Part shown: positions 9,109 to 20,876 of the stretch, piece after piece
Layout: each line of letters opens with the position of its first letter
Position numbering within the stretch: position 1 is the first letter of the stretch
IMG/VR virus record: IMGVR_UViG_3300020478_000085
Span: 1-20,876 of that record
Length of the DNA stretch: 20,876 nt
Origin: a virus
Strand: one strand, 5' to 3'
Translations under genes and position numbers: made by a program
The notes under the pieces: generated by a model
Databases searched by the model: none
What the model was told of the DNA's origin: nothing
The model's input: the letters and a program-made list of their open reading frames with translations, nothing else

Positions 9109-9116
9109 TATTTATA
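9109..9116 (-). promoter_or_regulatory. T4-type late promoter (downstream box) for gp8
   Basis: Exact TATAAATA on the minus strand. In T4, late promoters consist of this sequence at about -13 to -6, recognised by gp55 with gp33 and the sliding clamp. That spacing puts the start near 9103 and gives a 14-nt leader, ATAGGATAAAAACT, which carries the ribosome site directly before ATG. This is nearly the same geometry as at gp5 and gp25, so it is the more likely of the two boxes to drive gp8. Confidence 0.75.
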
Positions 9117-9120
9117 TACT

Positions 9121-9128
9121 TATTTATA
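9121..9128 (-). promoter_or_regulatory. T4-type late promoter (upstream box) for gp8
   Basis: A second exact TATAAATA on the minus strand, 12 bases upstream of the first, predicting a start near 9115 and a 26-nt leader. It lies partly in the loop of a 6-bp inverted repeat (TACTTA/TAAGTA). It could be an additional start or a chance match in very AT-rich DNA. Confidence 0.55.
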
Positions 9129-16383: not shown

Positions 16384-16410
16384 CTCCCGTTCTTTTATTT
16401 ATAACGGAAA
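16384..16410 (-). promoter_or_regulatory. Shine-Dalgarno-sequestering hairpin around the gp25 late promoter
   Basis: On the minus strand TTTCCGTT (16410-16403) can pair with AACGGGAG (16391-16384), giving eight pairs of which two are G-U, with an 11-base loop. The 3' arm contains the gp25 ribosome site GGGAG. The late promoter box occupies the last base of the 5' arm and part of the loop. An RNA starting at the predicted +1 (16390) would lack the 5' arm and could not form the hairpin. The silencing role is inferred from the known T4 e and soc arrangement. Confidence 0.6.
16396..16403 (-). promoter_or_regulatory. T4-type late promoter for gp25
   Basis: Exact TATAAATA, 19 bases from the box end to the gp25 ATG, the same distance as at gp5. 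The predicted start at 16390 gives a 13-nt leader, ACGGGAGTCCATA, carrying the ribosome site. It lies in the 51-base gap after the 383-residue gene. Confidence 0.8.
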
Positions 16411-18027: not shown

Positions 18028-18745
18028 TATTATATCTATATTCTTCTGCTGTTGTGTCAACAGATTCCAAAGTTTTCCAAGCATCATTGTTTGCTCTGGC
18101 ATGTTCTACTAATTTAAGACCTCTATATCCCCACAGAGCGAGTTCTCGATGCTCTTCCTCTGTATGATTTTTAAGGTCTTTCTCTTCAACTGTACCCGCT
18201 GGTTCTGCTTGCCGCAATCCTCTTGCAGTTGGGGCATCTTCAAGAACTAAAATATCAGTTGGATAATTTTCTAATGCCAATCTATGTCTTCCATGTATTT
18301 CTGAATCTTCACCAACTATTTTTCCACCCGCATTACTACCAGATGCATCACTTCCATTTAAAAGTATATGAACAGGGAAAACCCGTCCAAGCTCTTCGGA
18401 GGCATTGCCATCAACAACGACCTGTTGGTCCATAGAAATTAGTATATTATCTCCATTAACTTCTTGAACTAAAAAATCTCCTGTCTCTGCTATTAAATTG
18501 CCGAGTACTGGAACACCTTCAGTTATTAAATGTGGAATGGCATCTTCATCTGAATCAAAAGTGTCATGTTCTAATCGAAGTTGAAAACTTTCTGTTACTG
18601 GACCAAGCTGTTCACCATCATCTCCAAAATCTACATCAGGCTTATATTTAATAACCTCTAAAATTTTATCTTTAGGTATATCATCATATTCAGTATATGT
18701 ATGATACTTACCATAAATATCTAATATTATAAATTGATGTGCCAT
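18017..18745 (-). CDS. Hub-module structural protein with one LNGSDASGSNAGG repeat, function unknown
   Basis: A 242-residue protein from ATG at 18745, which overlaps the needle gene stop by one base (TAATG) and has GGA eight bases upstream. An ATG at 18781 in the same frame would add 12 residues (MASHARWRSGTI) but lies within the needle gene and is less likely. The protein is acidic; an N-terminal part (HQFIILDIYGKYHTYTEYDD) is followed by repeat-like segments LITEGVPVLGNLIAETGDFL, ILLNGSDASGSNAGGKIVGE (127-146) and ILVLED. These resemble the repeats of the gp7-position wedge protein. The C-terminal 55 residues look helical and charged (KDLKNHTEEEHRELALWGYR). The position between needle and PAAR suggests a hub or spike component. 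The family is not recognised. Confidence 0.8.
   Translation of the reverse strand: MAHQFIILDIYGKYHTYTEYDDIPKDKILEVIKYKPDVDFGDDGEQLGPVTESFQLRLEHDTFDSDEDAIPHLITEGVPVLGNLIAETGDFLVQEVNGDNILISMDQQVVVDGNASEELGRVFPVHILLNGSDASGSNAGGKIVGEDSEIHGRHRLALENYPTDILVLEDAPTARGLRQAEPAGTVEEKDLKNHTEEEHRELALWGYRGLKLVEHARANNDAWKTLESVDTTAEEYRYNIPS
18323..18363 (-). repeat. LNGSDASGSNAGG repeat copy shared with the gp7-position gene
   Basis: This single copy encodes LLNGSDASGSNAGG in the 242-residue hub protein. Bases 18331-18354 match 10143-10166 in the wedge gene at 23 of 24 positions, counted by eye, although the genes are 8 kb apart. That points to recent copying or gene conversion between them. Confidence 0.65.
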
Positions 18746-19890
18746 TATGGTTCCAGATCGCCACCGGGCGTGGCTGGCCAAGACTTAGATATTATGGAAG
18801 GTGGATTAGGTTGGTTCAAGTGAACCAATTTGCCATCAACATATACAGTTTGTAAAGCATGAAGGTGAGTTGTTTTTCCAGTATATATTGATTTTGTGTC
18901 TGCATTACCCGCTTCAACGTTTATTGTTAACCCATCCAATGTCGGACCTGTTGTACCTAAATTAACATCTCTTCCATCTATAGAAACCGAGTCCAATGCA
19001 CCTATTACTATAGCACTTTTACTAGACAAAATGTCTAATTGTCCATCAGTGATAACTTCAAGTGAACCAACTGACTCCAGCACCATCCTCTTCCTTGTGG
19101 AATGTAATTGATTTCGGTCTGATTGTAATACTATATTTCTTGCAGAATGTAGTTGGATATCTTCTCCAACGATATGGAGTTCATGATTTGAAACAGTATT
19201 AGCATAATGTTGTTCAATTTTATGAACTGAAGCACCTTTTATTTCTTCTAAATTATCTCCCAGTATTTTCACTTCTTTATTTCCATGTATTTTTTGAGTG
19301 AAATCACCAGTAACTTCTAGAATATAATCTCCCATCACCAGATGACGCATATTTCCAACAACAGTTAAAGTCACTCCCTCTTTTGCTGCACCACTAGAAT
19401 TAATAAAAATATTCTTTTTACCAGCAACAATTTCGTAACTATCTCCTTCGACTTTAACTACTTTTTCATTCTTTCCAGAACTTGTGCTAATAATTTCTTC
19501 AAAGCTATCATTAGCATGTTGAGTTAATATTCGAGAGGTTCTAGCATCATCATCAAATTCTACTATATGACCACTCTCCGACTCAAATACATGATTAAAA
19601 GGATACTTTGCTGATGGATATGGATTAGCATTAGGAGGATGACCTTTTGGGTGCGGTTGATCCCATTTAAGACCTGATGATGCCTTTTCTTTTTCCTCAT
19701 CCCATTGAATTTCAGTTTTCTCAGGCGAGTTTGCCTCATCAATATTTTTTTCTGTAGTTGCCATTCCTTGTATATCTGATAGCTCTGTAGAAGCGGTTTG
19801 GGCGGCAACATTTTCTGATACAGTAGCGACAGCCCCTTCAACCGCTCTAGTAACCTCTGGACTAGTAATATCTTCAGGATTAGTAGCCAT
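18745..19890 (-). CDS. gp5 C-terminal needle (beta-helix) protein, separate gene
   Basis: A 381-residue protein. Residues 1-90 are a charged, Ala- and Glu-rich low-complexity segment. Residues 96-131 (YPFNHVFESESGHIVEFDDD, then RILTQHANDSFEEI) are the conserved block that precedes the beta-helix in gp5/VgrG proteins. From about 148 to 310 come short strand repeats (GDSYEIVAGKKNIFI, GNMRHLVMGDYILEVTGDFT, GNKEVKILGDNLEEIKG), typical of the triple-stranded needle. It ends WPATPGGDLEP. In T4 the needle is the C-terminal part of gp5, released from the lysozyme part by cleavage after residue 351; here it is a gene of its own. No lysozyme domain is present. The start is fixed by GGGGGAG eight bases upstream; the gp5 N-terminal gene stops 21 bases before. 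It should trimerise on the hub and carry the PAAR tip. Confidence 0.9.
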   Translation of the reverse strand: MATNPEDITSPEVTRAVEGAVATVSENVAAQTASTELSDIQGMATTEKNIDEANSPEKTEIQWDEEKEKASSGLKWDQPHPKGHPPNANPYPSAKYPFNHVFESESGHIVEFDDDARTSRILTQHANDSFEEIISTSSGKNEKVVKVEGDSYEIVAGKKNIFINSSGAAKEGVTLTVVGNMRHLVMGDYILEVTGDFTQKIHGNKEVKILGDNLEEIKGASVHKIEQHYANTVSNHELHIVGEDIQLHSARNIVLQSDRNQLHSTRKRMVLESVGSLEVITDGQLDILSSKSAIVIGALDSVSIDGRDVNLGTTGPTLDGLTINVEAGNADTKSIYTGKTTHLHALQTVYVDGKLVHLNQPNPPSIISKSWPATPGGDLEP

Positions 19891-19911: not shown

Positions 19912-20541
19912 TCAAATCGGATCGTCAACAGAAGCGGCAGCTTCTGCTGCATCTGCAGCATCGGCAGCAGCAGCGGCGGCATCTGATATTTCATCAGGAC
20001 CAGCCCCTTTTGTCGATAACATTTTAGGTTTTGTTGCAACAGGTATACCTTTTACTCTCTTTTTTCTTCTGTTTTTAAGTGCCGTATGATATTCTGAAAT
20101 CACTCCTCTTGCAAGTCTGGATGTGTCAGGTTCACCGATTTTGTGACCAGAACTTGCAAGACCTTTTGATGAAGGATAATATCCGAATGGATCAGCAAAG
20201 CCCACTCCCGACTTAGGCTTTGTAGGAACACCGGGAAGCGTACCAATAATAATGGGTAATTGTTTCTCTTCTGAATCCCGAAAGAAACCTACAACCCAAG
20301 TACCCTCTACCATGAACGTAGGGGTATGTCCTAGCCCATTCATAGAAGGGCTAGTTACAGGGTGCATAACATGCGCCCATGGTAGATCAATTGTCGGAAG
20401 GTCAGATAAATTTTCAGTGTGAAAGCCAAGACAACGAACCCGTACTCGTCCTAATAATAAAGGGTCTTTCCTGTCTTCCACAACCCCAACGAACCATACG
20501 AATCCGTCAAGGCCAAAAAACTCACTTGAGGGTTGTGTCAT
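19912..20541 (-). CDS. 5: gp5 N-terminal OB-fold baseplate hub protein
   Basis: A 209-residue protein. Residues 8-105 (FFGLDGFVWFVGVVEDRKDP, GRVRVRCLGFHTEN, DLPWAHVMHPVTSPSMNGLG, WVVGFFRD, LPIIIGTLPG) are the gp5/VgrG OB-fold. The downstream motif GFADPFGYYP ... GEPDTSRLARG (114-146) is typical of marine T4-like gp5. A basic patch KNRRKKRVKG (156-165) and an Ala/Asp-rich helical tail (186-204) follow, where T4 gp5 would continue into lysozyme. In T4 the OB domain joins the gp27 ring to the needle. The ATG has AAGGAT upstream within a 13-nt leader from a late promoter. The Ala-rich tail may pair with the Ala-rich N-terminus of the next protein, but that is inference. Confidence 0.9.
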   Translation of the reverse strand: MTQPSSEFFGLDGFVWFVGVVEDRKDPLLLGRVRVRCLGFHTENLSDLPTIDLPWAHVMHPVTSPSMNGLGHTPTFMVEGTWVVGFFRDSEEKQLPIIIGTLPGVPTKPKSGVGFADPFGYYPSSKGLASSGHKIGEPDTSRLARGVISEYHTALKNRRKKRVKGIPVATKPKMLSTKGAGPDEISDAAAAAADAADAAEAAASVDDPI

Positions 20542-20545
20542 ATAT

Positions 20546-20576
20546 TTAATCCTTTACTTTATTTATAAAGGATTAA
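20546..20576 (-). promoter_or_regulatory. 11-bp hairpin enclosing the gp5 late promoter and ribosome site
   Basis: Perfect inverted repeat on the minus strand: TTAATCCTTTA (20576-20566), 9-base loop, TAAAGGATTAA (20556-20546), ending five bases before the gp5 ATG. The 3' arm contains the ribosome site AAAGGAT. The 5' arm overlaps the stop codon of the upstream 54-residue gene and the first two bases of the late promoter box; the rest of the box is the loop. RNA started at the local promoter (+1 near 20554) lacks the 5' arm. No T-run follows, so a terminator is unlikely. Confidence 0.75.
20560..20567 (-). promoter_or_regulatory. T4-type late promoter for gp5
   Basis: Exact TATAAATA, 19 bases from the box end to the ATG, identical to gp25. 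The predicted start at 20554 gives the 13-nt leader AAGGATTAAATAT. It would start the transcript for the hub and spike genes. Confidence 0.8.
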
Positions 20577-20737
20577 TGCAAGTCTGGATCACGCCCCATC
20601 AATTTTGACTGAACAGTATACTTCTCTATCTCGACTTCTTGTCCAGTATCTTTTAATATTTCCATTGCCACAATAGCATCATTATAAGATAAACCTTCTT
20701 CCAAGATTTGTTTCGTTATGATACGATACCTAATCAT
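20573..20737 (-). CDS. Small protein upstream of gp5, function unknown
   Basis: A 54-residue open frame starting MIRYRIITKQILEEGLSYND and ending SKLMGRDPDLH. It is a plausible small soluble helical protein with mixed charge, no membrane segment and few hydrophobic runs. It begins seven bases after the stop of the preceding partial gene and its ribosome site is weak (AAGAAACC), so it may depend on coupling. Its stop codon lies in the 5' arm of the gp5 hairpin. I recognise no family; its tight packing and normal composition support a real gene. Confidence 0.6.
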   Translation of the reverse strand: MIRYRIITKQILEEGLSYNDAIVAMEILKDTGQEVEIEKYTVQSKLMGRDPDLH

Positions 20738-20743
20738 GGTTTC

Positions 20744-20876
20744 TTATTTAGCAAACAAAACATCTTTCAGAAGAATATATTCCGTTTTACCTCTTGAAGT
20801 CTCCATCTCAAGGTATACAGATTCTATATCCTTATTCTTTACCATACGATAATCTTTACCTTTCTTCGACCAATAG
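20744..20876 (-). CDS. Partial small protein cut by the window edge, function unknown
   Basis: An open frame of 43 codons enters from the right edge (YWSKKGKDYR, then MVKNKDIESVYLEMETSRGK) and ends LLKDVLFAK with TAA at 20746-20744. The 5' end is either outside the window or at the internal ATG 20845-20843, which would give a 33-residue protein with GGTAAAG upstream. It is charged and Lys/Glu-rich. Nothing identifies its function. Confidence 0.5.
   Translation of the reverse strand, partial: YWSKKGKDYRMVKNKDIESVYLEMETSRGKTEYILLKDVLFAK

Follow-up and report, generated by a model that had tools for sequence, protein, structure and literature searches.

The gp5 start region and its hairpin

The window, that is, the whole stretch of DNA analysed (20,876 nt), is a virus fragment carrying T4-like baseplate genes. 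Its gp5 is distant from that of cultured phages, the closest isolate protein being from Pelagibacter phage Mosig (49% identity). The nearest isolates are marine Pelagibacter and Vibrio phages and, on this basis rather than from sample records, the relatives of the window phage are probably marine uncultivated T4-like phages. gp5 is found here as two adjoining ORFs on the minus strand (18745-19890 and 19912-20541; 381 and 209 aa), and in most relatives as a single ORF of ~450-530 aa; the two-ORF form is either a real split or a product of assembly or frameshift. A small ORF lies upstream of gp5 and gave no PHROG match (20573-20737); a small ORF with the same GRDPDLH ending is conserved in relatives, its stop usually placed 4 nt before the gp5 box, and in three loci (L183, L194 and L201) it has its own TATAAATA, placed for a 2-nt leader.

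Direct reading of the minus strand, 5' to 3', gives TTAATCCTTTA-TAAATAAAG-TAAAGGATTAA-ATAT-ATG at the start of gp5, with the following features:

20573..20737, minus strand: upstream small ORF, 54 aa, ending GRDPDLH; its stop codon (20575-20573) lies inside the 5' arm
20566..20576, minus strand: TTAATCCTTTA, hairpin 5' arm; includes the anti-SD TCCTTT and the stop of the upstream ORF (direct reading, fold)
20560..20567, minus strand: TATAAATA, late promoter box of the T4 type at -13 to -6 (exact match, coding strand)
20557..20565, minus strand: loop of 9 nt, six bases of which are shared with the promoter box (direct reading, fold)
20546..20556, minus strand: 3' arm, TAAAGGATTAA, with the gp5 Shine-Dalgarno (SD) sequence AAAGGA (direct reading, fold)
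20554, minus strand: predicted late transcription start (+1), from T4 spacing
19912..20541, minus strand: N-terminal part of gp5 (baseplate hub, OB-fold region), 209 aa (PHROG 430, 1.9e-47; tblastn hits to gp5 of Mosig and other T4-like phages)
16396..16403, minus strand: late promoter of gp25, used for comparison; its stem, TTCCGTT/AACGGGA, is weaker and has 7 bp (opening 9.1 vs 4.5 kcal/mol)

As originally predicted, the arms (20576-20566 and 20556-20546) form a perfect 11-bp stem around a 9-nt loop (20565-20557), and the 3' arm (20546-20556) holds the gp5 ribosome site, with AAAGGA eight bases before the ATG; the span first assigned to the hairpin, 20539-20576, takes in the gp5 ATG (20541-20539) as well. 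The box had been described as the loop plus two stem bases; the two stem bases are correct, but only the first six loop bases, and not the whole loop, belong to it. The hairpin has a predicted fold energy of -11.3 kcal/mol (z -4.1), reached by none of 200 shuffles. Its 11-bp perfect inverted repeat is the longest in the window, and repeats of at least 11 bp appeared in 2 of 60 dinucleotide-shuffled whole windows (mean 0.05 per window). Searches of the hairpin region returned no Rfam family match and no sigma-70-like site, and an intrinsic transcription terminator was rejected, as 20400-20876 has no GC-rich stem with a T run after it.

Exact copies of TATAAATA are present at 4 sites in the window, each on the coding strand; two boxes 12 nt apart (9109-9128, minus strand) precede a gp8-like ORF, and masking there is slight. 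Late boxes of T4 lie at -13 to -6 (PMC1524935), and applying this spacing to the gp5 box places the predicted +1 at 20554, which is base 3 of the 3' arm and gives a late leader of 13 nt; by T4 spacing, then, RNA started at this promoter would begin inside the 3' arm, as had been proposed. Since the 5' arm lies upstream of +1, it would be absent from late RNA, and the predicted cost of opening the SD-AUG region of gp5 is 12.2 kcal/mol in read-through RNA vs 0.4 in late RNA. Two features expected of a T4-type gated ribosome-binding-site hairpin are thus present: a stable hairpin whose 3' arm holds the SD or AUG (here the SD) and, given the predicted +1, a T4-type late promoter sited to leave the 5' arm out of late RNA.

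SD pairing among relatives

The comparison set of 477 loci (3.0 Mb) came from six scans that used gp5 proteins of the clade as seeds (the window, L066, L051, L018, L049 and L002), a further scan with Mosig gp5, and the isolate loci. It contains 99 distinct gp5 start regions that carry TATAAATA; in the 98 distinct relatives other than the window the box starts 13-45 nt before the gp5 ATG. Leader lengths were 10-32 nt in 78/99 regions, which bear an SD, and 0-2 nt in 21/99, with none between. Pairing of the SD with bases 5' of +1 reached P≥0.5 in 74 of the 78 SD-bearing regions (95%), while two of the 78 (L341 and L256) scored ~0. Among 102 late promoters of gp25 in these loci the share was 38%; the median P was 0.83 for gp5 (n = 78) and 0.34 for gp25 (n = 102). 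Read-through RNA needed more energy than late RNA to open SD-AUG, by a median of 7.5 kcal/mol for gp5, 1.4 for gp25 and 3.5 for other late genes (gp5 vs gp25, Mann-Whitney p 2e-22, a nominal value as the rows are related). Plain SD accessibility gave a softer contrast, the median unpaired value rising from 0.15 in read-through to 0.51 in late RNA at gp5, and from 0.43 to 0.56 at gp25. Part of the gp5 pairing is generic, because TATA is self-complementary and the box pairs weakly with leaders, and flank-shuffled gp5 regions still average a pairing P of 0.48.

When the upstream parts were swapped among gp5 loci, a region paired better with its own upstream part (0.813) than with foreign ones (0.670), a value as high being obtained in 0/5000 draws; at gp25 and other late genes the swap gave no own-vs-foreign pairing effect. 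The dinucleotide CC, the anti-SD core, stands directly before the box in 55/78 SD-bearing gp5 regions, 14/102 gp25 and 4/72 other late genes, and in 0/21 leaderless gp5 regions, and therefore is not part of the promoter. The anti-SD arm sits upstream of the box in most loci (CTCCTTATAAATA...TAAGGAG) and within the box or spacer in 21, as in AATACTCC...GGAGTATT (L335), GTTCCTATAAGGAAC (L062) and AACTCTGAAGGAGTT (L395). On a quick gp5 tree with many weakly supported branches, the arm has shifted between these two placements at least 7 times, each time remaining upstream of +1.

Compensatory stem changes, which the original prediction proposed to look for in relatives, were weak: column covariation in two aligned subgroups was not above shuffles and stem changes were mostly G-U on one side, although paired cells amounted to 95% and 89% vs 24-67% and 44-53% when the alignments were slid (MAFFT misaligned the window row in subgroup A1). 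We count the covariation result as neutral, since the box and the SD fix most stem positions. Based on the swap test, the gp25 and leaderless controls and the relocation of the arm, the comparison supports selection at the RNA level for SD pairing across the clade.

The 21 leaderless gp5 regions form one group nested among hairpin lineages (support 85); their box ends 5-7 nt before the ATG, there is no SD leader, and T4 spacing would place the gp5 ATG at +1 to +3. This clade has lost both SD and arm and is predicted to make a leaderless gp5 mRNA, and its read-through RNA would carry an internal AUG without an SD; the leaderless form may thus be a functional replacement of the hairpin. In Mosig (L082) and HTVC008M (L083) TATAAATA ends exactly 5 nt before the ATG at many late genes, and pelagimyophage late mRNAs with the ATG at +1 are predicted to be leaderless; late promoters had been reported as not predictable in pelagimyophages (PMC7029224).

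Among the isolates RB32, KVP40, phi-ST2, D479, Aeromonas 65, phiM12, Mosig and HTVC008M, no TATAAATA was found directly before gp5, which closely follows other genes in RB32, KVP40, Mosig and HTVC008M. Cyanophage gp5 often keeps NATAAATA, mostly without pairing. A promoter kept without the pairing had been named in advance as an observation that would speak against the hairpin; it occurs outside the clade, in most cyanophage gp5, and inside the clade the pairing is kept.

Upstream genes and alternative readings

The window reaches 335 nt upstream of gp5, and the genes beyond were read in relatives, using 45 hairpin loci that extend 0.8 kb or more upstream of gp5. In these, the gp5 strand holds 97% of the coding capacity upstream, and 37/45 have no further TATAAATA upstream of gp5; the box occurs 8 times in 133 kb upstream of gp5 vs 103 times in 383 kb downstream. 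Genes examined upstream of gp5 encode a UvsX-like recombinase, a gp41-type helicase and 2OG-oxygenases. In T4, uvsX and 41 are early/middle genes, and in RB32 both sit in a minus-strand replication block. With an early-type block on the same strand upstream, gp5 would therefore be the first late gene after the block. gp25, deeper in the late module, is mostly without such a hairpin.

Taken together, these observations make it probable that gp5 carries a start-site-gated translational lock at the early-to-late junction. Read-through RNA from the upstream early-type genes would carry both arms, and its hairpin would bury the gp5 SD, leading to poor gp5 translation; late machinery of the gp55 type would start RNA at TATAAATA, and this late RNA, having no 5' arm, would leave the SD free so that gp5 is made. 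The context suggests that the hairpin keeps gp5 silent in early/middle read-through. Of the original proposal that the read-through hairpin blocks gp5, the SD-masking hairpin with its 5' arm upstream of the predicted +1 is supported by comparison, being kept across the clade, and silencing would be its consequence. For the reason then offered, a protein needed in only three copies per virion, we found no evidence, and the context fits a gate at the early/late junction instead. The reading is built on sequence, predicted folds and selection across relatives, from which we infer the start site, the read-through RNA and the blocked translation.

Translational coupling, in which a ribosome ending the upstream small ORF opens the hairpin and gp5 output follows translation of that ORF, fares best among the alternatives, but appears unlikely. 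An upstream ORF ends inside the promoter region or close to it in 54/78 SD-bearing gp5 regions and also in the window; in 37 SD-bearing regions its stop is exactly 4 nt before the box. A ribosome stopping at this ORF's end could melt the window hairpin, which would count against the lock. However, the hairpin is also kept in the 24 regions that lack such a stop (24/24 with P≥0.5), their opening difference is larger than that of regions with the stop (9.2 vs 7.1 kcal/mol), and coupling alone leaves the position of the arm 5' of +1 unexplained.

A palindrome acting at the DNA level, either as an operator over the late promoter similar to that of I-TevI or as a by-product of the SD of a divergent late gene, is very improbable. 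T4 does have operators over late promoters (PMC2988022), and the RB32 divergent pairs 53/4 and 51/26 yield SD/anti-SD palindromes automatically; at the window site, however, there is no divergent gene (the plus-strand ATG at 20576 opens 10 codons only), the predominantly same-strand upstream genes of relatives argue against one, and arm sequence and position vary among relatives while SD pairing persists, unlike a protein site. The divergent-promoter palindrome was rejected for the gp5 hairpin, though it explains RB32 53/4 and 51/26. Chance pairing of an AT-rich promoter flank with the SD, for which the weak pairing of any such TATA box with leaders could be invoked, is the least credible reading, as gp25 has the same box and a similar SD and no pairing excess, the inverted repeat of the window is rare among shuffled windows, and the anti-SD CC is missing precisely from the regions that have no SD.

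Overlapping divergent late promoters with SD/anti-SD palindromes were located at ~25467-25515 in L559 (RB32 4/53) and ~12650-12701 in L560 (RB32 26/51), and also in L402, L432 and others; in such palindromes each read-through RNA would be masked automatically.

If the lock at gp5 is real, a control known from few T4 genes guards the early/late boundary in widespread uncultivated ocean phages, and the guarded gene is an essential tail gene. Moreover, the repeated re-siting of the arm upstream of +1 would let the start position be read from evolution alone, and the same gene would offer a comparison of the hairpin with the leaderless solution. A broader rule with two designs can be put forward only tentatively, and we consider it somewhat doubtful: that in this marine T4-like clade the first late gene after the early module is always unreadable in read-through RNA, the lock being re-sited repeatedly and once replaced by a leaderless mRNA, so that the 5' end alone decides translation.

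Comparison with T4 systems

Inhibitory structures masking the SD or the AUG are known for T4 e, soc, 49 and I-TevI, and for e and I-TevI, RNA initiated upstream is masked and late RNA is not (PMC3014915; PMC2988022). T4 gene e (lysozyme), like gp5, has its late promoter between the arms and its SD in the 3' arm; its late RNA lacks the 5' arm, and transcripts made earlier also run through this late gene (PMC3014915). For gene e the control has been proved by experiment, with an effect of ~100-fold, whereas gp5 is another gene, in another phage lineage, where the effect is predicted. RB32 gene e, the counterpart of this proven case, scored P=1.00 with our pairing metric. For T4 soc and gene 49 the inhibitory structure is at the translation start (PMC3014915), as predicted for gp5; RB32 soc scored 0, thus the metric has false negatives, and gene 49 gave no box/ATG pair in the scan.

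The SD is likewise sequestered in upstream-initiated RNA of T4 I-TevI, I-TevII, I-TevIII and segB and of Aeh1 mobE; in I-TevI it is freed by a late promoter, over which there is also a protein operator (PMC2988022). Members of this group are homing endonucleases, whereas gp5 is a structural tail protein whose gene stands at a boundary between gene modules. We found no report of such control on gp5 in the freely readable literature; the mechanism is known from T4, and gp5 and the marine clade appear to be new members.
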